Assembly (NCBI GenBank): GCA_036389795.1 | Contig: DASVWD010000099.1 | Location: 1 to 64,000 of the forward strand | Source of the DNA: Longimicrobium sp. | GTDB taxonomy: Bacteria; Gemmatimonadota; Gemmatimonadetes; Longimicrobiales; Longimicrobiaceae | Length of the DNA stretch: 64,000 nucleotides | Direction of reading: 5' to 3' | Part shown: positions 14,537 to 64,000 of the stretch, piece after piece | How the letters are laid out: each line of letters opens with the position of its first letter | How positions within the stretch are numbered: position 1 is the first letter of the stretch | Program-made: the position numbers and the translations under genes | The notes under the pieces: generated by a model | Told to the model about the DNA's origin: nothing | The model's input: the letters and a program-made list of their open reading frames with translations, nothing else | Database searches by the model: none

Positions 14537-14680
14537 TTCGGGCGTGTCCCCCTGAAGGGGGCCGGGCTGCGCGCGCGGTAGGGCACGATACGACTGTGCC
14601 CAACCGCGCCGGGCCCGGTCGTGCCAAACCCCCGGCACGCCCGGTCCCGGCCCTCCGGGCGCGCATCCCTCACGCAACTG
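14537..14680 (-). repeat. ~150-bp structured intergenic element (copy A1)
   Basis: The element lies in minus orientation. It has hairpin 1 (CCGGGCGTGCC/GGCACGACCGG, loop GGGGGTTT) and hairpin 2 at 14581-14601 (GGGCAC/GTGCCC, loop GTCGTAT). It ends with the conserved GAGGGATGCGCGCCCGGAGG side near 14680. Copies lie at 30461, 38541 and 52107. It fills half of the 313-bp gap before the His-rich secreted protein. Confidence 0.8.
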
Positions 14681-17609: not shown

Positions 17610-20552
17610 CTATCCCGGCTGCGGCTCGGGCGAGGCCGCGAGGCGCCCGTGGCGGATCTCCTCCGCCAGGGCGGCGGTCTCGGCCTCGGGCTCGGCGTCC
17701 AGCTCCTGGCGCAGGAGCGCCCGCAGGCGCTCGTACACGCGCAGGGCGCGGTCGCGCTGCCCCGCGCGCGCCAGGCAGAGCATCAGGCGGCGGTGCGCGT
17801 CCTCGCCGAGCTCCTCCCTGCGCACCAGCCGCTCGAAGACGTCCGCCGCCCCGGCGAAGTCGCCGCGCTCCATCAGGAGGCCGCCGAGCGCGGAGAGGCC
17901 GTCCACGTACAGCCGGCGCAGGCGGTCGTGGACCTCCAGGTGCCAGTCGCCCACCGCCTCGCCTTCCAGGAAGTCGCCGCGGTAGAGGCCGAGCGCGGCG
18001 CGGAGCTTTTGCTCCGCCCCGGCGGCGCCGGAGCGCGCGTCCCGGAGCGCGGCCGCGGCCTCGCGCTCGAAGACGGCGGCATCGAACCACACCTCCAGCC
18101 CGGGAGCGATCCGGTAGCGCTCCCCCTCCTGCACGATCCAGTCGGGGCGGCCCAGGCTCCTGCGCAGGCGGTGCAGGAGCACGTGGAAGCTGTTCTTCAC
18201 CTGCGCGGCGGAGGCGTCCGGCCAGAACGCGAGTCCCACCTGCTCGCGCGTCCTCCCCTGCGGGTGGCCGAGGAGGAAGACCAGGAGCTCCCTCGGCCGC
18301 GCGTGGGTCCACGCGTCGGGGGCCAGCGGCTCGCCCTCGGTGGCGATCTCCAGCGGGCCGAGCGCGCGCACGACGAGCGCGGGCGCGGCAGCCGCGGCGT
18401 CGCTCCCGGCGTCGGACGACGCCTCCGCGAGCACCGAAGACGCGGGGGGCCGGTCCGCCGGGACGTCCCCCGCCGCGTGCGCGGGCGCGAGGGCGAACTC
18501 GACCGCCTGCTCCAGCCGCAGCGCCTGCCCTTCCCTCCACCCGCGCTCCCAGGCGGCCTCGCCCAGCCGCGCGCGGGTGGCGGCCCGGGCGTGCTCGTAC
18601 GCCTCGCGGTCGACGGGAGTGACGTGGGAGCCGACGGCCGCCAGGCGCGCCTCGGCCGCCCCGAACAGGCGCGCCGCGCGCTCGTCGTCGCCCGTGGCGC
18701 TCGCTACCTTCGCCAGGTGCGCCAGCGAGAGCAGGGCCATGAACACGTTGCCGCCCTCGAGCGTGAGCGGCAGCGACTCCCGCACGAGTCCCCCGGCCCG
18801 GTGGAAGTCGCCCTGCTCGTAGGCCGTGGCCGCCAGGTTGTTGAGCGCGTTCCCCGCGCCCGCCGGGTCGCCCATCTCGCGCGCCAGCGCCAGCCGCTCG
18901 CCGTAGAGCGCCTCCGCCCGCGCGAAGTCGCGCCGCCGCAGCGCGGTGGTCCCCAGGTTGTTCAGCACCATCGCCGCGAACCACCGGTCCCCCGCCTCCC
19001 GCAGGAGGGGGAGCGCCTGCTCGTAGAGCGCCTCCGCGCGCGCGAAGTCGCCCTGGTCGGCGGCCGCCAGTCCCAGGCTGTTGAGCACGCGCCCGGTCAT
19101 GCGCCGGTCGTCCAGCGCGCGGTAGAGGGCCTCGCTCTCCTCCAGCAGCGGCCGCGAGGCGGCATAGTCCCGCTGCCGCGTCGCCAGGTTGCCGGCCCCC
19201 AGCAGCGCCTTCGCGCGCGTCTGCTCCCGGAGCCCTCCGGCCGAGAGGGCCTCCGCCAGCCACTGCCGGCCCTCGCCCAGGTGCCCGTGCTGCTGCCAGT
19301 AGCGGGCGAGCGCCCCGGCCAGGCGGGCCGCGGCCTCCGCATCCCCCGTCTCCAGCCCCGTGCGCAGCGCCGTGCGGAAGTTGTCGTGCTCCGCCTCCAG
19401 GCGGGCGAGCCAGCGGCCCTGCTCGGGTCCCGTGAGCCGCGGCTCGGCCTCTTCCGCCAGCGCCAGGAAGTGCTCCAGGTGCCGGCGCCGCCAGCGCTCC
19501 TCCTCGCCCGCCTGGCGCAGCCGCTCCCCCGCGTACTGCCGCACCGTCTCCAGCAGCCGGCAGCGCGCGGCGCCCCCCTGCTCCTGCATGGCCACCAGCG
19601 ACTTGTCCACCAGCGCGGAGAGCAGGTCCAGCACCTCGAACGGCTCGACCTCCTCGCCGGCGCAGACCGCCTCGGCGGCGTCGATGGTGAAGCCCCCGGC
19701 GAACACGGAGAGGCGCTCCAGCAGCTTCTGCTCGCGCCCGGAGAGGAGGCCGTAGCTCCAGTCCATGGTGGCGCGCAGCGTCTGCTGGCGGGGGACGGCG
19801 GTGCGGCGCCCGCCGGTCAGCAGGCGGAAGGCGTCGCCGAGGCGCTCCGCGATCTGCTCGGGCGTGAGCACCCGCACGCGCGCGGCCGCCAGCTCGATGG
19901 CCAGCGGGAGCCCGTCGAGGCGCTGGCAGATCCGCGCGACGGCGGGCACGTTCGCCGCAGTCAGGCGGAAGTCCGGCGCGCTGTCCCGCGCCCGCTCGAC
20001 GAAGAGCCGCACCGCGGCGGCGCCCGCCGCGTCCTCCAGCCCCGCCCCCTCGCCGCCGGGGAGCGCGAGCCCGGGCACCAGCCACGCGCGCTCGCCGGCC
20101 ACGCCCAGCGCCTCGCGGCTGGTGGCCAGCACCTTCACCCCGGGGCAGCCGCGCAGCAGCAGCTCGGCGAGGCGGGCGCAGGCCTCCACCAGGTGCTCGC
20201 AGTTGTCGAGCACCACCAGCACGCTCCGCTCGCGCAGCACCTCCAGCAGCACGTCGACGAGCGGACGGCCGCCCTCCTCCCGCACCCCCAGCGCGGCGGC
20301 GACCTGCCGCGGGATCAGGTCGGGGCTCTGCACCGGCGCCAGCTCGACCCAGGCGACGCCGTGCGGATACTCCCCGGCCGCCTGCGCCGCCGCCTCCAGC
20401 GCCAGGCGCGTCTTCCCGCTTCCGCCGGCGCCGGTGAGCGTCAGCAGGCGCGTCGAGCCGAGCAGCCGCCGCACCTCCGCCACTTCGCTCTCGCGGCCGA
20501 CGAAGCTGGTGAGCTGGACCGGAAGGCTGTCCGCCGTACGCGTCGCGCTCAT
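17610..20552 (-). CDS. NB-ARC/TPR regulator with C-terminal BTAD (SARP-like) domain
   Basis: 980-residue signal-transduction ATPase. The N-terminal nucleotide-binding domain has Walker A LTGAGGSGKTRLALE (residues ~38-52) and Walker B VLVVLDNCEHL (~115-125). A long TPR-like array follows (residues ~330-650). The C-terminal quarter has a winged-helix segment (WTHARPRELLVFLLGHPQGR) and a bacterial transcriptional activation domain up to the end. This order is the reverse of typical AfsR/SARP proteins, where DNA-binding and BTAD come first. It probably activates transcription in response to a nucleotide and an unknown ligand. The ATG is chosen at the start of the FVGRE-type ATPase. Confidence 0.85.
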   Translation of the reverse strand: MSATRTADSLPVQLTSFVGRESEVAEVRRLLGSTRLLTLTGAGGSGKTRLALEAAAQAAGEYPHGVAWVELAPVQSPDLIPRQVAAALGVREEGGRPLVDVLLEVLRERSVLVVLDNCEHLVEACARLAELLLRGCPGVKVLATSREALGVAGERAWLVPGLALPGGEGAGLEDAAGAAAVRLFVERARDSAPDFRLTAANVPAVARICQRLDGLPLAIELAAARVRVLTPEQIAERLGDAFRLLTGGRRTAVPRQQTLRATMDWSYGLLSGREQKLLERLSVFAGGFTIDAAEAVCAGEEVEPFEVLDLLSALVDKSLVAMQEQGGAARCRLLETVRQYAGERLRQAGEEERWRRRHLEHFLALAEEAEPRLTGPEQGRWLARLEAEHDNFRTALRTGLETGDAEAAARLAGALARYWQQHGHLGEGRQWLAEALSAGGLREQTRAKALLGAGNLATRQRDYAASRPLLEESEALYRALDDRRMTGRVLNSLGLAAADQGDFARAEALYEQALPLLREAGDRWFAAMVLNNLGTTALRRRDFARAEALYGERLALAREMGDPAGAGNALNNLAATAYEQGDFHRAGGLVRESLPLTLEGGNVFMALLSLAHLAKVASATGDDERAARLFGAAEARLAAVGSHVTPVDREAYEHARAATRARLGEAAWERGWREGQALRLEQAVEFALAPAHAAGDVPADRPPASSVLAEASSDAGSDAAAAAPALVVRALGPLEIATEGEPLAPDAWTHARPRELLVFLLGHPQGRTREQVGLAFWPDASAAQVKNSFHVLLHRLRRSLGRPDWIVQEGERYRIAPGLEVWFDAAVFEREAAAALRDARSGAAGAEQKLRAALGLYRGDFLEGEAVGDWHLEVHDRLRRLYVDGLSALGGLLMERGDFAGAADVFERLVRREELGEDAHRRLMLCLARAGQRDRALRVYERLRALLRQELDAEPEAETAALAEEIRHGRLAASPEPQPG

Positions 20553-26094: not shown

Positions 26095-27045
26095 TCACCC
26101 CGCGGCCTTTGCCGACGCGGCAAACAGCGTCGGCCCTTTCGCGGCCGGGTCGGGCGGGAGGGGGACGCGGCGGAAGCCCTCGAAGCCCGCCTCCTCCATC
26201 CAGCGGCCGATCTGCTCGCCGGAAAAACCAAGCCACACGTGCCCCATCGCCTGGCGGTACTCCTCGCGGTCGTGCGGGGCCATGTCCACCACCAGCACGC
26301 GCCCGCCGGACTTCAGCACCCGCCGCGCCTCGGCCAGCGCGGCCTGGGGCTCGGCGACGTAGTGCAGCACCAGGAAGAGGAGCGCCGCGTCCGCCTCGCC
26401 GTCGTCCAGCGGGAGCGCCTCCAGCTCGCCCGCGCGCACCTCCACGCTCGCGAGCGCGCCCAGCCGCTTGCGCGCCGCCGCCAGCATCGCCGGCGAGCTG
26501 TCGACGGCCACCACGCGGCGGACGAAGGGCGCCAGCGACTCGCTCACCTGCCCCGTCCCGCACCCCAGGTCGGCCACGGTCCACTCGGGATCGAGCAGCC
26601 CCAGCAGGCCCGCCAGGTCCGCCCGCTGCCCGAACAGCTCCGCGCGGAGCCTGTCCCACTGCCCGGCGGCGGAGGAGAAGAACTCCTGCGAGCGCGTGCT
26701 GCGCTGGGCCAGCACCGTGCGCAGCCGCTCGGCGTCCTGCCCTGCCGCCGGGGTGGCGGCCACCTCCTCGCGCACCAGCCGCCAGAGCCGGCGGGCGGAA
26801 GAGTCCAGGCGGTCGGCCACCATGCGGTAGCGGCGGCTGGTCCCCTCGGCGCGCCCGGCCACCCACTCCTCGTCCGCCAGCAGCTTCAGGTGCCGGCTCA
26901 CCGTGCTCTGCGGGAGCTGGAGCACCGCGCACAGCTCGCCCACCGTCAGCTCGTGCCGCTCCAGGAGCAGCAGGAGCCGGCTGCGCGTGCCGTCGGCCAG
27001 CGCCGACATGCGGTCGAAGATCGGGGGCGCGCCGTTCGCTTTCAT
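26095..27045 (-). CDS. ArsR-family regulator fused to SAM-dependent methyltransferase (SahR-like)
   Basis: 316-residue fusion. Residues ~8-85 are an ArsR-type winged helix (MSALADGTRSRLLLLLERHE, then LCAVLQLPQSTVSRHLKLL). Residues ~135-310 are a class I methyltransferase with motif I VADLGCGTGQVSE and the post-motif LKSGGRVLVVDM. The ATG is chosen at the start of the HTH domain. ArsR-methyltransferase fusions near ahcY belong to the SahR group, which binds S-adenosylhomocysteine and controls SAM-cycle genes. The role here is inferred from architecture and location. Confidence 0.88.
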   Translation of the reverse strand: MKANGAPPIFDRMSALADGTRSRLLLLLERHELTVGELCAVLQLPQSTVSRHLKLLADEEWVAGRAEGTSRRYRMVADRLDSSARRLWRLVREEVAATPAAGQDAERLRTVLAQRSTRSQEFFSSAAGQWDRLRAELFGQRADLAGLLGLLDPEWTVADLGCGTGQVSESLAPFVRRVVAVDSSPAMLAAARKRLGALASVEVRAGELEALPLDDGEADAALLFLVLHYVAEPQAALAEARRVLKSGGRVLVVDMAPHDREEYRQAMGHVWLGFSGEQIGRWMEEAGFEGFRRVPLPPDPAAKGPTLFAASAKAAG

Positions 27046-27118
27046 TCGTTCAGCCGGATGGAAGGATACAGCACTCCTCCTCCCGGCGCAAGGTCGAAGG
27101 ATCGATGCTGGAAAAGCG

Positions 27119-27151
27119 GAGCCTCCGCGTCCCATCGGAACGCGGAGGCTC
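27119..27151 (-). terminator. terminator of CYCXC protein gene
   Basis: GAGCCTCCGCGT and ACGCGGAGGCTC form a perfect 12-bp stem with a 9-nt loop, 36 bp after the stop codon of the minus-strand CYCXC gene. Confidence 0.6.
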
Positions 27152-27186
27152 GACTCACCTCTCTGCGGTACGGGCTGGCCCCGCGG

Positions 27187-27666
27187 CTACGAGCCGCCGC
27201 CGTATGCCGTGTCTACCGCCTGCCGGATGTCCTCCAGCGTCTTCCCCTCCCGGTGCAGCCTCAGGACGAGGGTCGCCTGGCCCTGGCAGATCCCGCAGTC
27301 CGCGGCCATCTGGCTCTTGTAGCAGTCCAGCAGCGAGCGCAGCTCCGGGTGCCGCTCGTGGCAGTCGCAGTGGCAGTAGATGCCGTCCAGCACCTGCGGG
27401 ATCCGCCGGGCCGCGACGTATGCCTGCCTCGCCCGGCCCTTCACCTGGGACACCGGCAGCACCCCCGTGGCGTCGATCCCCGGGCGCGGCTCCGGGTGGA
27501 CGTGCCGCTGGGCGGACGGCGGCGCGGCGTGATGTTCGTGCTCGTGCTGCTGTGCCCGCGCGCTCGCCGGCACCGCGAGCCCCAGGAGCGCGGCGGCGAG
27601 CGCCGGGAGCAGGACGCCCGGGCGGCCCGGAAGCACGGGCCTGGAACGGCGGAGGGGAAACGGCAT
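27187..27666 (-). CDS. secreted CYCXC-motif protein
   Basis: 159-residue protein. The signal region is LLPALAAALLGLAVPASARAQ, then a His-rich linker (HEHEHHAAPPSAQRHVHP). The conserved domain reads LDGIYCHCDCHERHPELRSL followed by LDCYKSQMAADCGICQGQA and ends EDIRQAVDTAYGGG. This matches the PCYCGC/CYCXC family with its clustered Cys and His, which suggests metal binding outside the cytoplasm. The family's physiological role is unclear. The chosen ATG begins the signal peptide. It precedes, in opposite orientation, the acyl-CoA synthetase. Confidence 0.82.
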   Translation of the reverse strand: MPFPLRRSRPVLPGRPGVLLPALAAALLGLAVPASARAQQHEHEHHAAPPSAQRHVHPEPRPGIDATGVLPVSQVKGRARQAYVAARRIPQVLDGIYCHCDCHERHPELRSLLDCYKSQMAADCGICQGQATLVLRLHREGKTLEDIRQAVDTAYGGGS

Positions 27667-27980
27667 GGGGAAGACTTCCTTCACGGTTCGCGGAGCCCGG
27701 TGGAGCGCGGCCGGCACCTGGTACGCTCGGGCGGCGGAAAGAGTTGCCGCCGGCACCGGGCGGACCGGCGGCGTCGCCTGGGCCGCAGAAAGCTGCAACA
27801 GAGCGGGCGCGCGCGAAAGGGAGTCGGGCTTCTCCCTTCACCTGCGCAGGCGGATGCCGGTTGGTGCGAGCGCCGGGCGCGCCGTACATTCCCGCCCGCG
27901 CGGCCGGCCGCCGCGCGGACGCGGCCCGGACGAGCCATGCCTCGCCCCTACGAAAACGACGGTGTGCAGGCACGATCCAG
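27667..27980. other. G+C-rich gap, no supported gene
   Basis: Between the divergent CYCXC and acyl-CoA synthetase genes I see only a partial end of the 103-bp element (GCCATGCCTCGCCCCTACG near 27935-27953) before the octamer tract. No promoter was convincing. Confidence 0.4.
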
Positions 27981-28065
27981 TACTTTCGCACTTTCGCACT
28001 TTCGCACTTTCGCACTTTCGCACTCACGCACTCACGCACTCACGCACTCACGCACTCACGCACTT
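27981..28065. repeat. octamer tandem array (C4)
   Basis: About five units of CACTTTCG are followed by about five units of CACTCACG, almost without variation, in 85 bp. The array ends ten bases before the acyl-CoA synthetase ATG and replaces a normal ribosome-binding region. It is the most regular of the six tracts. Confidence 0.9.
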
Positions 28066-28074
28066 CCGTCCTAC

Positions 28075-30198
28075 ATGCTCGACTCGCTCTTCCGCCCGAA
28101 GTCCATCGCCGTGATCGGCGCGTCGCGAACGCCGAACACCATCGGCTACCAGATCCTGGACAACCTGCTGCGGCACGGCTACACGGGCGCCGTCTACCCC
28201 GTGAACCCGAACGCCGCCGCCATCCACTCCATCCGCGCCTACGCGAGCGTCGAGGCCATCCCCGACGAGGTGGAGATGGCCGTCATCGTGGTCCCCAAGC
28301 ACCTGGTCGTCGGCGCGGCGGAGGCGTGCGGGCGCAAGGGGGTGAAGGCGCTCGTGGTGATCTCCGCGGGCTTCAAGGAAGTGGGCGGATCGGGGATCGA
28401 GCGCGAGCAGGCGCTGGTGGCGGTGGTGCGCCGCTACGGGATGCGCCTGGTCGGCCCCAACTGCATGGGGGTGCTGAACACGGCGCCCGACCGGTCGATG
28501 AACGCCACCTTCGCGCCCACCATGCCGCCGGCCGGCCCCGTCTCCTTCATGAGCCAGAGCGGGGCGATGGGCGTCACCATCCTGGACTACGCGGCGGAGT
28601 ACGGGATCGGGATCTCGCAGTTCGTCTCGGTCGGCAACAAGCCCGACGTCTCGGGCAACGACCTGATCGAGTACTGGGCGGCCGACGAGCGCACCCGCGT
28701 GATCCTGATGTACCTGGAGAACTTCGGGAACCCGCGCAAGTTCACCCAGCTGGCGCGCGAGATCACGAAGCGTAAGCCGATCATCGCCGTGAAGAGCGGC
28801 CGCTCGGTGGCCGGGGCGCGCGCCGCCTCGTCGCACACGGGCGCGCTGGCGGGCACCGACCTGGCCACCGACGCGCTGCTGCGCCAGTGCGGCGTGCTGC
28901 GCGCCGACACGGTGGAGGAGATGTTCGACCTGGCGATGGCGTTCTCGCACCAGCCGATCCCGCGCGGCAACCGGGTGGCCATCGTCACCAACGCCGGGGG
29001 ACCGGGGATCATCATCGCCGACGCGTGCGAGGCGCAGGGGCTGGTGGTCACGGAACTCGCCGAGGCCACGCGGGCGATGCTGGCAGCGCACTTCCCCGAG
29101 GAGGCGTCGCTCTCCAACCCGGTGGACATGATCGCCTCGGCCACGCCGCAGAGCTACCGCGTGGCCGTCGAAGCAGTCCTCGCCGACCCCAACGTCGACG
29201 CGGTGATCGCCACCTTCGTCCCGCCGCTGGGCATACGGCAGGAGGACGTGGCCGAGGCGATCGTGCAGGTGGCCGCCGGGCAGAAGGAGAAGCCTGTGCT
29301 GGCGGTGCTGATGGGGCGCGAGGGACTGCCGCAGGGGCTGGCGGAGCTGAACGCGGCGGGGATCCCCGGCTACCGCTTCCCCGAGTCGGCGGTGCGCGCG
29401 CTGGGGGCGATGTACCGCTACCGGCGCTGGACGGAGCGGCCGGTGGGCACAGTGCGGACGTTCGAGGTGGACCGTGCGGCCGTGGCGGAGATCATCGACG
29501 GGGCGCGCGCGGAGGGGCGCGAGAAGCTGGCGGAGGCGGAGGTGATGCGGGTGCTGGAGGCGTACGGCATCCCCGTGGCCCCGTACCGCGTGGCGCGCTC
29601 GCTGGACGAGGCGCTGCAGGCGGCGGACGGCGTGGGCTGGCCGGTGGTGCTCAAGGTCCTCTCGCCCAGGATCGTGCATAAGAGCGACGTGGGCGGCGTG
29701 GTGGTGGGCGTGGAGGACGCCGACGAGCTGCGGCGGGCGTGGGAGCGGGTGGCGGTGGAGGCGCCGCGGCGGGCGGGGATCGGGGCGGAGGAGGTGGACG
29801 GGGTCCTGGTGCAGAAGATGGTGGGCGGGGGGAAGGAGACGATCATCGGGATGACGGGCGACCCGCAGTTCGGGCCGGTGCTGATGTTCGGGCTGGGGGG
29901 GATCTACGTGGAGGCGCTGGGCGACGTGGTGTTCCGCGTGCAGCCGGTGACGGACGTGGACGCGCGGGAGATGATCGGCGCCATCCGCGGTGCGCGGCTG
30001 CTCAAGGGGGTGCGCGGCGAGCCGCCCGTGGACCTGGACGCGCTCCAGGAGATGGTCCAGCGCGTCTCGCAGCTGGTGGGCGACCACGAGGCGATCCGCG
30101 AGCTGGACGTAAACCCGTGGCTCGCCTTCCCCGAGGGCGGCGTGGCGGTGGACGGGCGGATCATGGTACGGCTGGGGCCACCCGCGGCGCGTCCGTAG
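28075..30198 (+). CDS. acetate--CoA ligase (ADP-forming) family protein
   Basis: 707-residue NDP-forming acyl-CoA synthetase with alpha and beta parts fused. The CoA-binding Rossmann domain starts LFRPKSIAVIGASRTPNTIG. The ligase domain carries the phospho-His motif SSHTGALAGTD (near residue 245). An ATP-grasp_5 domain occupies residues ~480-700 (WPVVLKVLSPRIVHKSDVGG; ELDVNPW). It interconverts acyl-CoA, ADP and phosphate with acid, CoA and ATP. No acetyltransferase domain is attached. Substrate is unknown. The start is the first ATG after the tandem array; no Shine-Dalgarno sequence is visible. Confidence 0.9.
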   Translation: MLDSLFRPKSIAVIGASRTPNTIGYQILDNLLRHGYTGAVYPVNPNAAAIHSIRAYASVEAIPDEVEMAVIVVPKHLVVGAAEACGRKGVKALVVISAGFKEVGGSGIEREQALVAVVRRYGMRLVGPNCMGVLNTAPDRSMNATFAPTMPPAGPVSFMSQSGAMGVTILDYAAEYGIGISQFVSVGNKPDVSGNDLIEYWAADERTRVILMYLENFGNPRKFTQLAREITKRKPIIAVKSGRSVAGARAASSHTGALAGTDLATDALLRQCGVLRADTVEEMFDLAMAFSHQPIPRGNRVAIVTNAGGPGIIIADACEAQGLVVTELAEATRAMLAAHFPEEASLSNPVDMIASATPQSYRVAVEAVLADPNVDAVIATFVPPLGIRQEDVAEAIVQVAAGQKEKPVLAVLMGREGLPQGLAELNAAGIPGYRFPESAVRALGAMYRYRRWTERPVGTVRTFEVDRAAVAEIIDGARAEGREKLAEAEVMRVLEAYGIPVAPYRVARSLDEALQAADGVGWPVVLKVLSPRIVHKSDVGGVVVGVEDADELRRAWERVAVEAPRRAGIGAEEVDGVLVQKMVGGGKETIIGMTGDPQFGPVLMFGLGGIYVEALGDVVFRVQPVTDVDAREMIGAIRGARLLKGVRGEPPVDLDALQEMVQRVSQLVGDHEAIRELDVNPWLAFPEGGVAVDGRIMVRLGPPAARP

Positions 30199-30460
30199 GG
30201 TCGAGGCATGCCTCGACCTCCCCGACGGCGCAGCCGCCGGGGACCCTCTCCCCCGCGCGTCCCCGGTCGTTCGTTCCTCACGACCAGGGGCCGCGCTCCC
30301 CTCTCCCAGACTGCGGGAGAGGGGAAACACCTCGGCGCTGCGCGCGACTGACCCGAGCGAAAATGGGGTGCGCGGTTGAAGCCTCGCGGGGTTTGCGAGG
30401 CTTTCCGTAGTTCCAGCGGGTGTCTTCAGGCACTCGCGACCCGGCGCTGCGCGCGACCGA

Positions 30461-30612
30461 AGTTGCATGAGGGATGCGCGCCCGGAGGGCCGGGACGCCG
30501 CCGCCACACGGGGTATCGTGGCGGCGGTGGCCCGGCGCGGTTGGGCACGGTCGTATCGTGCCCTACCGCGCGCGCAGCCCGGCCCGGAGCGCAGCGGAGG
30601 GACATGCCCGAA
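30461..30612 (+). repeat. ~150-bp structured intergenic element (copy A2)
   Basis: The conserved left end is GAGGGATGCGCGCCCGGAGG. Hairpin 1 at 30498-30527 (CCGCCGCCAC/GTGGCGGCGG, loop ACGGGGTATC) is followed by hairpin 2 at 30543-30563 (GGGCACG/CGTGCCC, loop GTCGTAT). The right end is CGCGCGCAGCCCGGCCCGGA to ATGCCCGAA. A degenerate GTGCGAA tract follows. It lies 110 bp before the AAA protein start, within a 525-bp gap that otherwise holds GTAGGGTCGAGG and GAAGCCTCGCGG repeat pieces. Confidence 0.85.
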
Positions 30613-30723
30613 CCGCGGTGCGAAGCGCGAGGTGCGAAGTGCGAAGATGACAGCAGGGAGGTGATGCGATACTGTTCATCCGCGGCGACCGATACCCGAT
30701 CCTCCCCTCCCTCCCCAAGCAGC

Positions 30724-32136
30724 ATGACCATCGAGCGCAGCCCGGCCCGCTACGCGGAGCGCATCTTCGACGCCGTGGACGACGCGGCGGAGCGCGGCTT
30801 CTGGAAGAAGCAGGACGACCGCTACGCCGACCTCACCCGGCACGTGCTGGGGCTCCTGGGCTCGCTCATCGGCGCGGACGGGGCCTCGGGGGCCGACGAG
30901 GTGGCGTACGTGATGGAGATGGCGCGCCCCTTCCAGCCCAACGAGCCCACCCACGACGAGACGGTGAAGGTGATCCGCGACGCCACCCGCCGCTTCGAGC
31001 TGGCCCGCACGCCCGACTACTTCCGCGCCATCGTGGCCGCCGACCTGGCCGCCAAGACGCGCGCGGCGGGCGACGTGCTCTGGTGCCTGCGCGAGCTGGG
31101 GCTGGGCGTCATCGCCGTCGACAAGACCAGCCACCCGCAGGAGATCGAGCTGCTCACCAGCCACCTGGCGGTGCTGCGCGGCTTCGCGGAGGCGCAGGGG
31201 GTGAAGGTGGCCTGGACCGACCACCCCGGCGGCCTGGCGGCGGACGCGGCGCGGGCGGCTTCGGGCGCGGCGGGGGTCACGCCCGAGCCCGACGTGGCCA
31301 CCCTCGACCAGCTGATGGAGCGGCTGAACGCCCTCGTCGGGCTCGAGCGGGTGAAGAAGGAGGTGGAGACGCTCACCAACGTGATCCGCGTGCGCCGCAT
31401 GCGCACCGAGCGGGGGCTCCCGGTGCCGCCGATGTCGCTGCACATGGTGTTCATGGGGAACCCGGGGACGGGGAAGACCACGGTGGCGCGCATCCTGGCC
31501 GAGATCTTCCGCGCGCTGGGGGTGCTCTCGCGCGGGCACCTGGTGGAGGTGGACCGCTCGGGGATGGTGGCGGGCTACGTGGGGCAGACGGCCATCAAGG
31601 TGCGCGAGGTGGTGGAGCGGGCGCTCGGCGGGGTGCTGTTCATCGACGAGGCGTACGCGCTGACCACCAACCGCGGCTCGGAGGACTTCGGCTACGAGGC
31701 GGTGGACTCGCTGGTGAAGCTGATGGAGGACCACCGCGACGACCTGGTGGTGATCGTGGCCGGCTACCCGGAGCCGATGCGCGAGTTCGTCGGCAGCAAC
31801 CCCGGGCTGGAGAGCCGCTTCAACCGCTACATCGAGTTCGAGGACTACACGCCGGAGCAGCTGCGCGCCATCTTCGACAAGCTGTGCCGGGAGAGCGGGT
31901 ACACGCTGGACCCCGAGGCGTCGGGCTACGCGGACAAGCTGTTCGCGGAGATGCACGAGAACCGCGGCGAGAACTTCGCCAACGGCCGCGAGGTGCGGAA
32001 CCTGTTCGAGAACGCCGTGGCCCAGCACGCCAACCGCGTCGCGGGGATGGACCAGCCCACGGACGAGGTGCTCTGCACCCTGCGGATGCAGGACCTGGGA
32101 CTCGCGGCCGAGCAGATCAGCGACGAGCCGGTGTGA
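30724..32136 (+). CDS. CbxX/CfqX-type AAA+ ATPase with helical N-terminal domain
   Basis: 470 residues. The N-terminal 170 residues are helical and resemble a TerB-like fold (VLGLLGSLIGADGASGADE; VIAVDKTSHPQEIELLTSHL). The AAA domain has Walker A FMGNPGTGKTTVAR (near residue 243), Walker B GVLFIDEAYAL and the GYPEPMREF loop typical of CbbX and type VII EccA ATPases. The family remodels protein complexes, for example as Rubisco activase, but no Rubisco or secretion genes are nearby. Its client is unknown. A start 20 codons upstream is possible. Confidence 0.82.
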   Translation: MTIERSPARYAERIFDAVDDAAERGFWKKQDDRYADLTRHVLGLLGSLIGADGASGADEVAYVMEMARPFQPNEPTHDETVKVIRDATRRFELARTPDYFRAIVAADLAAKTRAAGDVLWCLRELGLGVIAVDKTSHPQEIELLTSHLAVLRGFAEAQGVKVAWTDHPGGLAADAARAASGAAGVTPEPDVATLDQLMERLNALVGLERVKKEVETLTNVIRVRRMRTERGLPVPPMSLHMVFMGNPGTGKTTVARILAEIFRALGVLSRGHLVEVDRSGMVAGYVGQTAIKVREVVERALGGVLFIDEAYALTTNRGSEDFGYEAVDSLVKLMEDHRDDLVVIVAGYPEPMREFVGSNPGLESRFNRYIEFEDYTPEQLRAIFDKLCRESGYTLDPEASGYADKLFAEMHENRGENFANGREVRNLFENAVAQHANRVAGMDQPTDEVLCTLRMQDLGLAAEQISDEPV

Positions 32137-32349
32137 GGCCTCTTCCCGCTTCGATCACCCGTGCGCGGGGTGCCAAAGGCGGGTGAACCCGCGGCAACAA
32201 CGGCGAGAAGCCTGCCTTCGCAGGCTGGTTCGGCGCGAGGACCGGCCTCGGCGCGGAATGCATGGACCGCATCATCTAGCCTCGACGGCGCCGCCCTTGT
32301 ATGTTGGCGGCCGGCAACCGCGAATCACCCCGAACCGGCCGACTGCGCG

Positions 32350-32472
32350 ATGGGCAAGCTCTTCTTCCACATGGGCGTCTTCGCCGTGGTGACGTTCCTG
32401 GTCTACCTGGCGTGCCTCTTCTTCATCCGCTACGAGGAGCGGCGCGAGCAGCGGCACGGACCGCGGGTCTGA
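32350..32472 (+). CDS. small single-span membrane protein
   Basis: 40 residues: MGKLFFHMGVFAVVTFLVYL forms most of a transmembrane helix to about residue 27. A basic, hydrophilic tail (RYEERREQRHGPRV) follows. No Cys or enzyme motif is present. It probably lies in the inner membrane with the charged tail in the cytoplasm. A strong terminator follows, and the upstream gap holds a CAACAACGGCGAGAAGCC repeat piece. The hydrophobic start, clean length and downstream terminator support a real small gene. Confidence 0.55.
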   Translation: MGKLFFHMGVFAVVTFLVYLACLFFIRYEERREQRHGPRV

Positions 32473-32500
32473 GGCGGCCGCATCGCTCGGCGGCGGCAAG

Positions 32501-32541
32501 ACGCGACGCCCGCGGGAGATCCCGCGGGCGTCGCGCGTTTT
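32501..32541. terminator. terminator between convergent genes
   Basis: ACGCGACGCCCGCGGGA pairs with TCCCGCGGGCGTCGCGCGT, a stem of about 17 bp with a tiny loop followed by TTTT on the plus strand. It serves the small membrane protein and possibly the convergent secreted protein. Confidence 0.75.
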
Positions 32542-32552
32542 CTTCCGCTCCC

Positions 32553-33425
32553 TTACTTCGCCTCCCACTCGATCCGCGTCTCCCGGTCTCCCGCGATCCT
32601 CCGCACGTCCTTCATCAGGTAGCCCGACCTCCGCGCGTCCGCCGCCATGAGCGCAGGCTGGAGGCGCGGCGGAACGGGGACCAGCACGCCGACCTGCACC
32701 ATCCGGCCGCGGCAGATCTCCACGGAGTGCGAGAGGCTGAAGCGGATGGCGAGCTGCCCGTTTTCGACGTGGTGCAGCGCGAAGTCGCTGGGGAAGCTCT
32801 CGCCCACGGAGTACGAGCACTCCATGCCCTGCTCGTCGTCGTCGGGGGTGGCGACGAAGGTGCCCTGGTATTTCAGGGTGTCCACCAGCGCGGCGAGCGA
32901 GCGGGCGGTGCGGACGTCCACCGAGTCCATGACGCCGCGGATCAACCGGTCGGCGGTGAGGGCGCGCAGCAGCGGCGCCTCGGGGACCAACTCGGTGATG
33001 CGGACGGGATGGGGCCTGGCGGGCGTGCTGCGCGCGAGGTCGTACGAGACGAAGCCGCGGCCCGAGATCGGGTGGGCGCCGCCGCAGTCGCAGTACCAGT
33101 ACTGCTCCAGGCTGACGATCGACCCCACCACGGAGAGCAGCCGGTACGTCACCATCTCCTCGCGGATCGGCGGATCGTCGTCTCCCGTCCGGCCGGCGCG
33201 CTCCGCGTCGAACGCCTGCTTGAGCGAGAACACCAGCCGCCCGTCGCCCACCCGCCGCGCGGAGACGTCGCTCGTGTCCCAGGTGATGTCGAAGCCGCCC
33301 GAACGCCCGCGCCAGATCACCTGCGCGCCGGCGGCGGCGTGCGCGGCGGGCACCAGGGCGAGCGCGAGCGCCAGCGGGCGCAGGGCGCGGGACGGCCGGA
33401 GACGCGGCAGTCGAGGGAGCGGCAT
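32553..33425 (-). CDS. secreted hypothetical protein
   Basis: 290 residues with a signal peptide (LALALALVPAAHAAAGAQ). The mature part is beta-rich. It carries a paired-Cys segment YWYCDCGGAHPISGRGFVSYD and further single Cys (MECSYS, VEICRGR) that could form disulfides. There is an internal WEAK C-terminus and no catalytic motif. It has no neighbours on its strand. I do not recognise the family; periplasmic or extracellular location is inferred from the signal peptide. Confidence 0.55.
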   Translation of the reverse strand: MPLPRLPRLRPSRALRPLALALALVPAAHAAAGAQVIWRGRSGGFDITWDTSDVSARRVGDGRLVFSLKQAFDAERAGRTGDDDPPIREEMVTYRLLSVVGSIVSLEQYWYCDCGGAHPISGRGFVSYDLARSTPARPHPVRITELVPEAPLLRALTADRLIRGVMDSVDVRTARSLAALVDTLKYQGTFVATPDDDEQGMECSYSVGESFPSDFALHHVENGQLAIRFSLSHSVEICRGRMVQVGVLVPVPPRLQPALMAADARRSGYLMKDVRRIAGDRETRIEWEAK

Positions 33426-33620
33426 CGTCGGATCGGCGGCGGGTGGGTGGCGCGGTCAGGGAGCACGAGAGCGCGTCCGGATGATACTGCTACGGGGATG
33501 GTCGAGACAACGAAATCATCCTCGCCCCTCCTTTCCCCGGTATCCGACGCGCGGCCTGCGGCGTGCGTGTACCCTCTCCCGATCACCGGGACGGTGGAAC
33601 GACGCGCTCGGGAGGGACCG

Positions 33621-33923
33621 ATGAGGGAGAACGTCGGCGGCGCGGACCGCAAGATGAGGATGGTGGTGGGGCCGGGGCTGCTGGTGCTGGGCTACGCGGC
33701 GCTGGGAGGCAATCGCGGCCGCCTCCCCGGCCTGCTGGCGATGGTGGCCGGGGTGCTCGTAACGGAGACGGCGATCACCAAGGTGTGCCCGCTCAACGAG
33801 GCGCTCGGGATCGACACCGCGCGCATGGACTTCGGCGACGCGCTGCCGCCGCGGAGGCACGTGCGCAAGCCGGAGCTGGACTTCGACACGGCGGGCACGT
33901 GGTCGGGCGGCGGGAGGTGGTAG
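33621..33923 (+). CDS. DUF2892-like small membrane protein
   Basis: 100-residue protein. Starting NVGGADRKMRMVVGPGLLVL, it matches the YgaP-type DUF2892 membrane module: two short hydrophobic helices around LLVLGYAALGG and LPGLLAMVAGVLVTETAITK, then a CPLNEALGI motif near residue 59. The C-terminal 35 residues are hydrophilic and atypical. It is an inner-membrane protein, often paired with rhodanese domains elsewhere but not here. Confidence 0.75.
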   Translation: MRENVGGADRKMRMVVGPGLLVLGYAALGGNRGRLPGLLAMVAGVLVTETAITKVCPLNEALGIDTARMDFGDALPPRRHVRKPELDFDTAGTWSGGGRW

Positions 33924-34043
33924 GAAAAACTGGGTGACTTCCGGCCCGCTTCGATCGGCTTCGGCGCGGCCGCGGTCAGCCCCCCTCCCCGACCCTCCCC
34001 CCGCTGCGCGGTGGGAGGGAGAACTTCGTCCCGCAACGCAGTT

Positions 34044-38540: not shown

Positions 38541-38687
38541 GCGTGAGGGATGCGCGCCCGGAGGGCCGGGACCCGGGCGTGCCGGGGGTTTGGCACGACC
38601 GGGGCCCGGCGCCGTTGGCCTGCGTAGTTTGCAGGCCTACGGCGCGCGCAGCCCGGCCCGGAGCGCAGCGGAGGGACACGCCCCGAA
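38541..38687 (+). repeat. ~150-bp structured intergenic element (copy A3)
   Basis: Hairpin 1 at 38573-38602 is identical in sequence to that of copy A1. Hairpin 2 at 38617-38637 has a completely different stem (GGCCTGC/GCAGGCC) but a related loop (GTAGTTT). The conserved ends GAGGGATGCGCGCCCGGAGG and GCAGCCCGGCCCGGAGCGCA are intact. Confidence 0.85.
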
Positions 38688-52106: not shown

Positions 52107-52257
52107 TTGGGCATGTCCCTCCGCTGCGCTCCGGGCCGGGCTGCGCGCGCCGTAGGGCAACAAACGACGTTGCCCAACGGCGCCGGGCCACCACCGCCAC
52201 GATACCCCCTGTGGCGGCGGCGTCCCGGCCCTCCGGGCGCGCATCCCTCATGCAACT
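52107..52257 (-). repeat. ~150-bp structured intergenic element (copy A4)
   Basis: Read on the minus strand, hairpin 1 is CCGCCGCCAC/GTGGCGGTGG with loop AGGGGGTATC. Hairpin 2 (52155-52175) is GGGCAAC/GTTGCCC with loop GTCGTTT. Conserved ends match copies A1 to A3. The remainder of the 377-bp gap is G+C-rich with no gene seen. Confidence 0.85.
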
Positions 52258-56842: not shown

Positions 56843-58928
56843 CGGCCACCTCGCCGCGCAGCAGCACATCGGCCTGGTCCAGTGCGTCCGCCAGCGCCGA
56901 CAGGTCCGCCCCGCCCTCCTGGTTCGCGTTTAGGAACGCCCAGCCGAGTTCGCAATGCCGCGAGAGTACCCGGAGGGCGTGCGCCTTGTCCTCCGCGCTC
57001 ATGTCCGGCTGCTGCGCGTGCGCAAACGCATCGCGGATGTTCGCCGGAAGCCGGTCGACCTCGGCCGCGGCGGCGTCCCGGCGCGCCGGCGGATTCTTGG
57101 CCGGTTGCGCGGGTGGGTCCTGTGCGCCGTGCCGCCCTTCCCACCCGCTCCCCGGGACCGCCGACGCAGGCGCCCCGACCTCCTGCAGCAGCCGAAGCGT
57201 CGTCCGAAGCGCCTCGTTCAGGACGACCACGTGCGCGGGGGTCGCAGGCGCTTCGGGATGGAACCAGGCGCGAATCTCCCCCAGGGTGGCCGTGCCGCGC
57301 ACGATGGCGCGGGCGATGCCGGACGGTGCGACTGCGGCCTCAGCCGGGCCGGGGGCGCTTCGCGAAGCGGGGGCCGAAGACGACCCACCCGCTTGCGGAG
57401 GTGACGACGTGGCGGAGGTCGCACCAGACGCCATCGAAGGGTCCGCGGTGGAACCGGACGACACGGTGGACGTCGTGGAACCTTCGGTGGACGGCTCCTC
57501 CGGCATCGGGCTGGGGTCGGCGACGAGGAGCGGCCCGTGGGCCTCGGTCGGATCGGTGCCGCCCCACTCCTGGCCGTCGCGGTCCCCGACGGAACCACCC
57601 GACCCCGCCGGCGGCGTCCGGAAGTGTTCTGGCGTGCAGTCTTCGCAGACGCCGACGGTGAGGTCCGCCAGCCCCCACAAAGTCGAGCCGCAGGACCGAC
57701 AGGGTGTCGTGCACGGCTCGGGTGACCAACGGCCCTCGGCGCCCCGTGGCTCGCCTGGCGGGCGCGGGCCCATGCCGGACTCGTCGGCTTGCACCTCCTC
57801 GCTTCCACTGACTGGCAGCGACGTACGCCCGATCAGGTCGAGTGCTGCCTGTCGCTCTCGCTCCTCGGGGAAGACCGCCGCCAGATCCGCGTGGGTGTCG
57901 ACAGCGAGGCCCCGCCGGCGCATCTCCTCGAGCTTGGTCTCGTACCACGTCGGGTTGTAACAGCGCCGGTGCCCGACCAGCGTGTCCGGGGCGCCGCAGC
58001 CGCACTCCGCGTCGTGCTCGCCCGCGGGCAGCATAGGGGAGTCCGCCGGCAGGTCCGCGGCGCAGTCGAGCGGCCAGGAGACCTCGAGCGCCACCCCGAG
58101 AACGATCTCCTTCACCTGTCGGTCCGAGAGGCCCTTGGGCTCGGTGATCGCCGCTTCCTCGCACGCCGCCGCCGCGCGCCCGAACAGGCGCGCCCTCGCT
58201 GCATCGTTCTTGAGCTTGGAGAGGAACGGCTTCACGTAGTTCTTGAGCGCCGTTCGGCTCCAGTCGCCGGCCTCGACGCCCGCCAGCCAGTAGTCGGGGA
58301 GCTTGAGCAGCCCCAGGTCGTTGGAGAGCGTGGACGGGGAGTCGTAGCCGAGGGCCGCGGCGATCTCCTCGCGGGTCTTGCCGGCCGCCTCGCCGAGCGC
58401 CACCTCGACGGCGTGCGCGCGGAGCTGCTCCACGTCGGAGAGCAGGAGTTTTTCGGTGCCGGTGACGCGCGCGTAGCGGAGCGCCTCCTCGTCCGTCCAG
58501 GTGCGGACCTCGCAGCGGAGCGTCGCGAGCCCGGCCGCTCGAGCCTCGCGCCAGCGGCGCTCGCCGTCCACGATCTCGACGTGCGGGCGGGACTCTTCCG
58601 ACCACCGGAATGGCGGGCCGTACTCCGCCAGGTCGGCCGCCGAGACGTGGACCAGGAGCGGCTCCTGCTGGCCGTTCGCACGCAAGGAGTTCCTGAGCCT
58701 CGCCTGCTCCAGCTCGGGGAAGCGCTGGCGGGGATTCATCCGCTGGCCGGCGAAAGGGCCCTCCTGGAAGCGGTACGGGCCGCTGATCCAGTGGAGGGGG
58801 ATCTCGGCGACCCCGAGAGAGGCGCCCTCCGGCGCCTGAGACCGGAGCCACGCCTTGAGCGAGAGACCGCTCGCGCGGAACGCGGCGTTCTCTTTATCGG
58901 TCAGGTGGACGCCTACCTTGGCTGCCAT
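56835..58928 (-). CDS. ParB/RepB-like DNA-binding protein with Cys motifs
   Basis: 697 residues. The ParB/sulfiredoxin-like N-terminal domain (residues ~30-140) carries IVDGERRWREARAAGL, the GERR CTP-binding box. An HTH region follows (KTREEIAAALGYDSPSTLSN). Two Cys clusters follow: ECGCGAPDTLVGHRRCYN near 325 and CRSCGSTLWGLADLTVGVCE near 430, likely zinc ribbons. The C-terminal 270 residues are low in complexity until an ordered end. No ParA is adjacent. It may serve partition, replication or transcription of the element. Confidence 0.8.
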   Translation of the reverse strand: MAAKVGVHLTDKENAAFRASGLSLKAWLRSQAPEGASLGVAEIPLHWISGPYRFQEGPFAGQRMNPRQRFPELEQARLRNSLRANGQQEPLLVHVSAADLAEYGPPFRWSEESRPHVEIVDGERRWREARAAGLATLRCEVRTWTDEEALRYARVTGTEKLLLSDVEQLRAHAVEVALGEAAGKTREEIAAALGYDSPSTLSNDLGLLKLPDYWLAGVEAGDWSRTALKNYVKPFLSKLKNDAARARLFGRAAAACEEAAITEPKGLSDRQVKEIVLGVALEVSWPLDCAADLPADSPMLPAGEHDAECGCGAPDTLVGHRRCYNPTWYETKLEEMRRRGLAVDTHADLAAVFPEERERQAALDLIGRTSLPVSGSEEVQADESGMGPRPPGEPRGAEGRWSPEPCTTPCRSCGSTLWGLADLTVGVCEDCTPEHFRTPPAGSGGSVGDRDGQEWGGTDPTEAHGPLLVADPSPMPEEPSTEGSTTSTVSSGSTADPSMASGATSATSSPPQAGGSSSAPASRSAPGPAEAAVAPSGIARAIVRGTATLGEIRAWFHPEAPATPAHVVVLNEALRTTLRLLQEVGAPASAVPGSGWEGRHGAQDPPAQPAKNPPARRDAAAAEVDRLPANIRDAFAHAQQPDMSAEDKAHALRVLSRHCELGWAFLNANQEGGADLSALADALDQADVLLRGEVAGA

Positions 58929-62907: not shown

Positions 62908-64000
62908 GCAGCGCGCCCTCGTCTATGACGTCGCCCGCACCATCCTGTTCCTGCGCGACGTCGACTCCGGCCTCGGCGCAGGTCCGGCGGCGTTGAGCGA
63001 CCTTCGCGCCTTGCGGCTGCTCTTCCGTGTCGGGCTGGAGCACGGCGCAACCGGCGGGAATGTGCTGGAGCCCGTCCGTCCGCGCCGCGGCGAGGCCGCG
63101 CGCTGGAGGGTTCGCAGCGGATTGGGGGGCGAACTGCTTCGATTCACGGTCGCGAACTGCGTCGGCCGGGAACTGTTCCGCGACCACCGCTTCAAGCGTG
63201 CTGCGTGTGACCTATTCTCTCTCGCCGTTGTCTTCCCGGCGACCGTCAATCCAACTGATAGGTCCGTGGTCGACCTTCTCTCGGAGTTTGATCCGCGTGC
63301 ACGCTGGGTTGTACGAGACCTTCCGGCCCTCCTGCGATTGCGCACGGCGGTCCACCACGCGCTCGCCTCGTGCCCGCCGCCGCAGTTCCGCACCTGGTTG
63401 CATTCGCCCGCCAGGAGTGCTTGGTCGGCAGGGCGCGACGCCCGGGAGAGCGAACGTTACCGCGCCGCCTCAATCTGGTTTGCGCTCGCGATCAGATCCG
63501 GGCGGCACCTCGGGGACTTTTCGGCGGTATCGCTTGGGTGGACGGGATTGGGAAAGGTTCACAAGCTCCGCGGTGCGTTCCCTAAGGCCGGCCGGTGCTT
63601 CGCGAGGGCGGCGCATGTCGCGCTCCGGTGTGGATTTCGAGCCGAAGCAGCATACGCAGTTCACGGCTTAGCGTCGCTCGCAATCGAAGCACCAAGCGGG
63701 CGGCGCGCGCGCCGTTTGGTAAGGCTCGCGCTACGGCTCTACCCTGCTGGCGACCCGCACCGCCTGCACCTTCTCCACGATCTCGGCTACCTTTGGGTGG
63801 AGGAAGGGCGGTTCGTCGCCGCGCAACGTCTTTTCGGTGCCGTACTCTCGGCCGTGGCCGATGCCGAGCCTGGCCTGCGCATGCTGGTGCTTGCTAACTT
63901 CGTCCGGGCGGCTGCTGGGGCGGGAGACCGGGCGTCTTACGAGGCTTGGTGGTCTGCGGCGTGGAGGGCGGCGCATGAATCAGCGGACAGCCCCCAGCGC
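62876..64000 (+). CDS. TPR-like protein paired with the XRE repressor (partial)
   Basis: At least 375 residues, open to the window end. It starts with ATG inside the last 32 bases of the repressor gene. The first 120 residues are not recognised. From ~190 onwards repeated helix pairs follow (RYRAASIWFALAIRSGRHLG, AFPKAGRCFARAAHVALRCG, GRFVAAQRLFGAVLSAV), which fit tetratricopeptide repeats. A separate TPR partner for an HTH repressor recalls split RRNPP-type sensors, but no peptide gene is seen. C-terminus missing. Confidence 0.7.
   Translation, partial: MTGPQEELTDRQRALVYDVARTILFLRDVDSGLGAGPAALSDLRALRLLFRVGLEHGATGGNVLEPVRPRRGEAARWRVRSGLGGELLRFTVANCVGRELFRDHRFKRAACDLFSLAVVFPATVNPTDRSVVDLLSEFDPRARWVVRDLPALLRLRTAVHHALASCPPPQFRTWLHSPARSAWSAGRDARESERYRAASIWFALAIRSGRHLGDFSAVSLGWTGLGKVHKLRGAFPKAGRCFARAAHVALRCGFRAEAAYAVHGLASLAIEAPSGRRARRLVRLALRLYPAGDPHRLHLLHDLGYLWVEEGRFVAAQRLFGAVLSAVADAEPGLRMLVLANFVRAAAGAGDRASYEAWWSAAWRAAHESADSPQR

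Follow-up and report, generated by a model that had tools for sequence, protein, structure and literature searches.

A strand-specific folded repeat of Longimicrobium chromosomes has homologues conserved in the leading regions of conjugative plasmids

An intergenic repeat that is undescribed in the databases searched was found in hundreds of copies, at species-specific positions, in the chromosomes of one Gemmatimonadota family; conjugative plasmids carry a homologous element, which is conserved in their leading regions. The fold of its + strand is under selection, and the chromosomal and plasmid forms have both architecture and sequence in common. The repeat is probably a strand-specific folded ssDNA element that forms one homologous family with a T-strand structure found on plasmids at ssDNA promoters and leading operons. 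We also think it rather likely that this family includes Frpo1/Frpo2 of F, the CUP region of the IncN plasmid R46 and MOBF plasmids of Burkholderiales. Through one testable fold, an uncharacterised chromosomal repeat is linked to the blocks of conjugative plasmids in which ssDNA promoters lie, and the findings suggest that a plasmid-entry structure has turned into an abundant chromosomal repeat.

The window, a stretch of 64,000 nt (64 kb) from a Longimicrobium sp. contig, had been reported in a first-pass annotation to contain four copies of a structured element, and all four were present at the places and on the strands given there. Their structural limits are 14540-14675 for copy A1 (minus strand; hp3 variant CCCCC-TTCA-GGGGG), 30465-30609 for copy A2 (plus strand), which has the full structure and serves as the reference copy, 38541-38683 for copy A3 (plus strand) and 52109-52253 for copy A4 (minus strand), which sits between convergent genes. 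The annotation was right to propose a repeat family, the number being ~300 copies per genome instead of four. When one copy was used as a BLAST query against the assembly of the window (G000; 7.5 Mb, 285 contigs), 40 scored matches of 95-100% identity were obtained of 485 candidates. With nhmmer, 92 full-length copies were found in 1.44 Mb of G000 contigs, and partial copies were almost absent. The four largest contigs (462 kb) contained about 20 copies, or ~1 per 23 kb; extrapolation from them gives an estimate of roughly 300 per genome, made on contigs that were partly picked by matches and in an assembly in which many contigs terminate within a copy. The ends of contigs C33, C51, C77, C153, C174, C184 and C72 fall inside element copies, indicating that the repeat breaks the assembly and is under-counted. 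Mini copies of 61-62 nt (L054:6779-6839 and L245:12419-12480) were also seen, in which P1, P2 and hp3 are kept and the hp0/hp1/hp2 domain is absent.

The structure was drawn by hand from 39 copies of the own genome. The unit of ~145 nt (about 120-175 nt among chromosomal forms) was found to consist of a closing stem, P1, an inner stem, P2, and the hairpins hp0, hp1, hp2 and hp3. Inside P1, P2 encloses hp0, hp1 and hp2 and is followed by GG, hp3, a single A and the 3' strand of P1; P2, hp0, hp1 and hp2 abut, forming a 4-way junction with zero unpaired bases. On the + strand of the reference copy, the P1 5' strand GCATG (30465-30469) pairs with the P1 3' strand CATGC (30603-30607). The consensus of this outer closing stem is GCRTG/CAYGC, and it covaries without exception in the 39 copies, with G-C in 31 and A-T in 8. 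The P2 5' strand GGGATGCGCG (30471-30480) pairs with the P2 3' strand CGCGCAGCCC (30571-30580), with the consensus GGG-A-TGCGCG/CGCGCA-G-CCC and an invariant A.G mismatch (30474/30577). The hairpin hp0, CCC-GGA-GGG (30481-30489), has the loop GGA here and GNCA in other copies. It is followed by the complete hp1, CCGGG-A-CGCCGCCGCCAC [ACGGGGTATC] GTGGCGGCGGTG-G-CCCGG (30490-30535), with an invariant A.G mismatch between its outer stem and the hairpin 1 described earlier, and by the complete hp2, CGCGGT-T-GGGCACG [GTCGTAT] CGTGCCC-T-ACCGCG (30536-30570), in which hairpin 2 is extended by an outer stem across a T.T mismatch. The outer pair of hp2 was G-C in 27, C-G in 11 and A-T in 1 of the 39 copies, and hp1 and hp2 have in common a heptaloop of the GNNGTWT type. 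The last hairpin, hp3, CCC-GGA-GC[GCA]GC-GGA-GGG (30583-30601), is replaced by alternative hairpins at the same place in other copies; it is swapped wholesale for CCCCC[TTCA]GGGGG in some, and for TTTTGGCG[TCTC]CGCCAAAA in a relative. The 21-nt core of hairpin 2 with its GTNGTWT loop and the two stem versions of hairpin 1 were described correctly in the annotation. Both hairpins exist, although each had been drawn 5-7 pairs too short, and P1, P2, hp0 and hp3 had been overlooked. In the copies of two congeners, G008 and G009 (for example, L383:6733-6899 and L366:9015-9184), an additional loop is present at the apex of hp1; its length is near-constant (32-38 nt), and it is hypervariable among the copies of one genome. 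These ~33-nt loops were considered as guides and rejected, as they are homologous, drifting loops with no fold of their own.

The fold is stable beyond chance (MFE z = -3.6). In the 39 own-genome copies, 98.1% of cells were paired and double changes occurred at 14 of 52 pairs, giving a covariation score of 0.146 compared to 0.040 in shuffles (0/500 reached it) and at most 0.031 when the partners were slid, a control in which the 3' partners are moved 1-3 columns and which destroys covariation. In a set of 33 copies mostly from relatives, the alignment of which was made with the model and hence leans toward it, 95.5% of cells paired, compensatory changes were found in 38 of 52 pairs and in all seven helices, and the score was 0.363 compared to 0.093 in shuffles (0/500) and at most 0.057 with slid partners. 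The earlier proposal that paired changes with fixed loops reflect selection on structure is thus supported, and the many copies with significant covariation that it called for were amply found in both the 39-copy and the 33-copy sets. Hundreds of natural variants are available for learning which features of the fold matter. A protein-coding reading is out: copy lengths differ by non-multiples of three, and the stem changes are paired.

The two strands of the element are not equivalent. With DNA folding energies, the + strand was more stable in 84 of 86 own copies, 45 of 45 copies from G008/G009 and 19 of 23 plasmid forms; copies within one genome are related and so are not independent events, and the direction agrees in all sets. 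Among non-Watson-Crick cells of the + strand, G.T was commoner than A.C, with the exception of the loop-closing A.C of hp2, and mismatches were mostly purine-purine, not pyrimidine-pyrimidine. Together, the mismatches and the DNA folding energies show that + is the folded strand.

The link to plasmids first rests on the 3' third of the element. In BLAST searches against plasmids, only this third (the 3' strand of P2, hp3 and the 3' strand of P1) was matched in a Methylomagnum plasmid, and, at a looser limit, on Burkholderia, Mycetohabitans and Acidovorax plasmids, in each case between annotated genes. When the covariance model R1 was run on these loci (27 kb), which had been chosen by the partial BLAST match, the whole model matched compact forms of about 85-113 nt (E = 2e-10, 4e-9, 8e-8, 1e-7, 4e-7, 2e-6 and 2e-5). 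As a specificity control, R1 was run on a further 761 kb, mostly GC-rich and containing an element 16-mer, and gave 0 matches at E<=0.05; a scan of all genomes with 16-mers was too unspecific, and 100 of its other loci were negative with R1. One compact copy used as a BLAST query retrieved 357 plasmid records, 300 of them typed conjugative. The plasmid and chromosomal forms were found to share P1, the A, GGG-A-T/A-G-CCC, CCC-GAA-GGG, the A.G mismatch of hp1 next to GAGAC/GGCTC, the AGCCCGG linker and GGA-GC-GCA-GC-GGA of hp3. Moreover, pairs of P1 and P2 covary in the plasmid forms too (P2: T-A in 11, G-C in 7), and hp2 is much shorter on plasmids than on the chromosome. RNAalifold on a MAFFT alignment of the plasmid forms recovered only hp0, the foot of hp1 and part of P2, because the differing lengths of hp2 and hp3 misalign, and the part-by-part comparison was used instead. 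In the reverse direction, a model of the plasmid forms (R2) placed the four window copies within the top eleven matches in 241 kb, with weak E values of 0.08-0.64.

An HMM built from nine plasmid copies, with F and R46 left out, matched two places on F (E = 1e-4 and 9e-4), both on the minus strand, at 58106-58171 and 63501-63559, and two places on R46 (E = 9e-8 and 5e-4). R2, in which F was included and R46 was excluded, matched R46 at three places (E = 2e-11, 9e-8 and 6e-7), and no clear copy was obtained with R2 in positions 60000-93399 of ColIb-P9. The F copies precede ssb (by about 470 nt) and the next leading operon, and those of R46 and of IncN/IncN2 plasmids lie between leading operons in the CUP-controlled region (ardA, ardB, ccg, ssb). 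From the positions of oriT and the leading region we take the + strand of the copies on F and R46 to be the transferred T-strand. Long stretches of the two F blocks are 95-100% identical, and the likeness ends just past the structure; the structure therefore forms the 3' end, on the T-strand, of the duplicated Frpo block and is distinct from the -35/-10 promoter hairpin of that block. The duplicated Frpo1/Frpo2 blocks (L411:13039-13650 and 18439-19040) extend well past the promoter hairpin. Frpo2 precedes ssbF and Frpo1 precedes ygeA/ygeB; the two are 92% identical and needed for early expression (PMC9849209).

Frpo1/Frpo2 (ssiD) and the chromosomal element are alike in being strand-specific folded ssDNA in intergenic DNA, the compact form standing in T-strand sense at the T-strand 3' end of both blocks. 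They differ in that the -35/-10 promoter hairpin belongs to a different part of the block and does not occur at chromosomal copies, and in that the chromosomal form is longer, exists in hundreds of copies and bears no relation to gene starts. Copies in T-strand sense, three on R46 and several on IncN/IncN2, also lie in the CUP-controlled leading region of IncN plasmids (R46/pKM101), CUP itself having been defined through its promoters and binding sites for ArdK. A conserved, structured T-strand module that is not in Rfam is common to the CUP region of IncN plasmids and the Frpo blocks of F. At gathering and at permissive thresholds, no Rfam family matched either the chromosomal or the compact form; no match to the element was found in viral and phage collections, nor any phage with the compact-form query. 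The annotation's statement that no described family has this layout holds for Rfam, whereas compact homologues do occur in plasmid leading regions described for other reasons.

A structured non-coding RNA, either a cis-acting UTR element or an independent small RNA encoded hundreds of times, would also account for a covarying multi-junction fold with conserved loops, and its G.U and G.A mismatches fit RNA as well as ssDNA. However, the orientation of copies to genes is near-random (++31, --22, +-16, -+14), the Rfam match is absent, and no conserved 5' flank or promoter was found over the 5' flanks of 85 copies. On most other plasmids, moreover, the + strand is opposite to the flanking leading-type genes (SSB, ParB-like, DNA methyltransferase, antirestriction), being antisense to nearly all of them, so that leading-operon mRNAs would carry the unselected strand and ssDNA is favoured over RNA as the working form. 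We regard an RNA as unlikely; a riboswitch or UTR role in particular was rejected on the near-random gene orientation. Among the options raised in the annotation (an RNA, a REP element or a protein-binding site), an RNA is less favoured by the data than folded single-stranded DNA of one strand, and a REP of the RAYT type is disfavoured.

That last option, a REP/BIME mobilised by a RAYT (TnpA-REP), was suggested by CTAC/GTAG adjoining hp2 in the window copies, where the minus strand reads GTAG plus hairpin, by two Y1_Tnp genes in the own genome and by the high intergenic copy number. GTAG followed by a hairpin is the hallmark of REPs, and the element resembles them in being abundant, intergenic and palindromic with a strand-specific ssDNA logic. 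In contrast, no significant element match was found beside 30 Y1_Tnp loci (best nearby E 0.05), three relatives (G001, G004 and G005) have Y1_Tnp and lack the element, G018 has at least 40 copies and no Y1_Tnp match, and the GTAG tag, which in REPs (as GTAG or CGTC) is conserved at the foot of the hairpin, is lost in a number of relatives. Furthermore, the element is 145 nt long compared to 20-40 nt for REPs, that is, 4-5 times longer, and has a multi-branch fold. The RAYT-REP reading is largely refuted and appears quite improbable.

R1 matched 11 of 61 relatives, and across 395 genomes of the phylum its matches were confined to one family, that of the source genome; two of the carriers are Gemmatimonadetes bacterium 0707_bin15 (JAHWJJ01) and RYN_364 (JAQBQD01). 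With a simple gene caller written for this analysis, 0 of 92 copies overlapped a called gene, so that the copies are strictly intergenic; the upstream gene was co-oriented with the copy in 47 cases compared to 36. None of 11 syntenic comparisons between G000 and G008/G009 showed a shared copy. The site of copy A3 (38541) was occupied in only one of eight congeners, G007, and empty in seven; the hp1 types at this site differ between G000 and G007, as their genomes do. One intergenic site is common to G008 and G009 in the same orientation and is empty in G000. These findings show that copies come and go, and that the element is a dispersing intergenic repeat, mobile on an evolutionary scale.

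Differences in presence between species, defined ends, a length of ~145 bp and the 5-bp inverted repeat of P1 would fit a classical MITE moved by a DDE transposase that recognises terminal inverted repeats, and repeats of this type (ERIC, NEMIS, RUP) are likewise dispersed, non-coding and 100-150 bp long. However, target-site duplications were absent, flank sharing being equal to that of shuffled pairs, a search for inverted repeats in the flanks gave none, and the terminal inverted repeat is no longer than P1; nor would a MITE be expected to show selection on its internal stems or an asymmetry between its strands. We consider this origin very unlikely. More improbable still appears a role as an insulator between genes, a terminator or an mRNA-stabilising palindrome that is positively maintained by the host. 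The copies are strictly intergenic, and one occupies the slot between terminator and next promoter at fusA-tuf in two genera, but elsewhere, where readable, this slot holds other palindromes or none, and convergent sites are only mildly enriched (16 seen compared to about 12 expected). In G001, G004, G005 and G006 (L301, L302, L306 and L304) the fusA-tuf slot, which holds the element in G014 and G015, is filled by a different long palindrome family, of the CACAGAGACACGGAG type.

In the preferred reading, that of a folded ssDNA element, the locus would become single-stranded during T-strand entry on plasmids and, on the chromosome, as lagging-strand template or at other ssDNA stages. The + strand would then snap into its junction-plus-hairpins shape and may be recognised by a host machine acting on ssDNA, candidates being RNA polymerase, the primosome and SSB. 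On plasmids, it would belong to the ssDNA structure through which the T-strand can be read or primed as it enters, as reported for Frpo (PMC9849209, PMC11541004). The chromosomal copies lack the plasmid arrangement of a gene on the 5' side reading away; they sit, in the window, among ordinary genes on a large contig rather than in a conjugative leading region. Since the 5' flank is not conserved, the ssDNA promoter hairpin does not accompany them. No TrwC/MobF-type relaxase was found in 12 relatives, and thus no resident source plasmid was seen. The lack of a promoter-like 5' flank, of a link to gene orientation and of such a relaxase points to a dispersed folded-ssDNA repeat that would not be a promoter of its neighbours, although the same host machinery acting on ssDNA may still be drawn to it. 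Its spread was probably through ssDNA, because target-site duplications are absent. Descent may have run from plasmid to chromosome or the reverse. With this element, one can ask what machinery of the host recognises ssDNA in folded form and whether it is put to use by chromosomes.

That the structure used by conjugative plasmids on incoming ssDNA has become a chromosome-wide system, with hundreds of sites for strand-specific entry or priming that act whenever the DNA is single-stranded (on the lagging strand, in transformation or in transfer) and leave a strand-asymmetric mutational trace around them, is a tentative extension that we think doubtful. In G000, the GC skew at four-fold sites was found to be shifted to G on the + strand of the element, up to ~3 kb to either side of the 92 copies (for example, window 27000-34000), with a peak at the element and independently of gene strand; it was positive upstream of 65 of 72 copies (p 7e-13) and downstream of 64 of 87 (p 1e-5). 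The shift was absent in G008 and weak, and upstream only, in G009. A replication-strand cause was rejected, since the sign flips every 10-20 kb and the effect was not reproduced in G008 and was upstream only in G009; the shift, which may be a mutational footprint or an insertion preference, is not used here as support for any reading. Most copies are trailed by degenerate repeats of the GTGCGAA type outside the fold (30610-30647, + strand, at the reference copy). This tail (window 30610-30660) was found in fixed orientation 3' of the copies in 30 of 33 intergenics; it sometimes has an inverted partner farther on, and such repeats are also present without the element.
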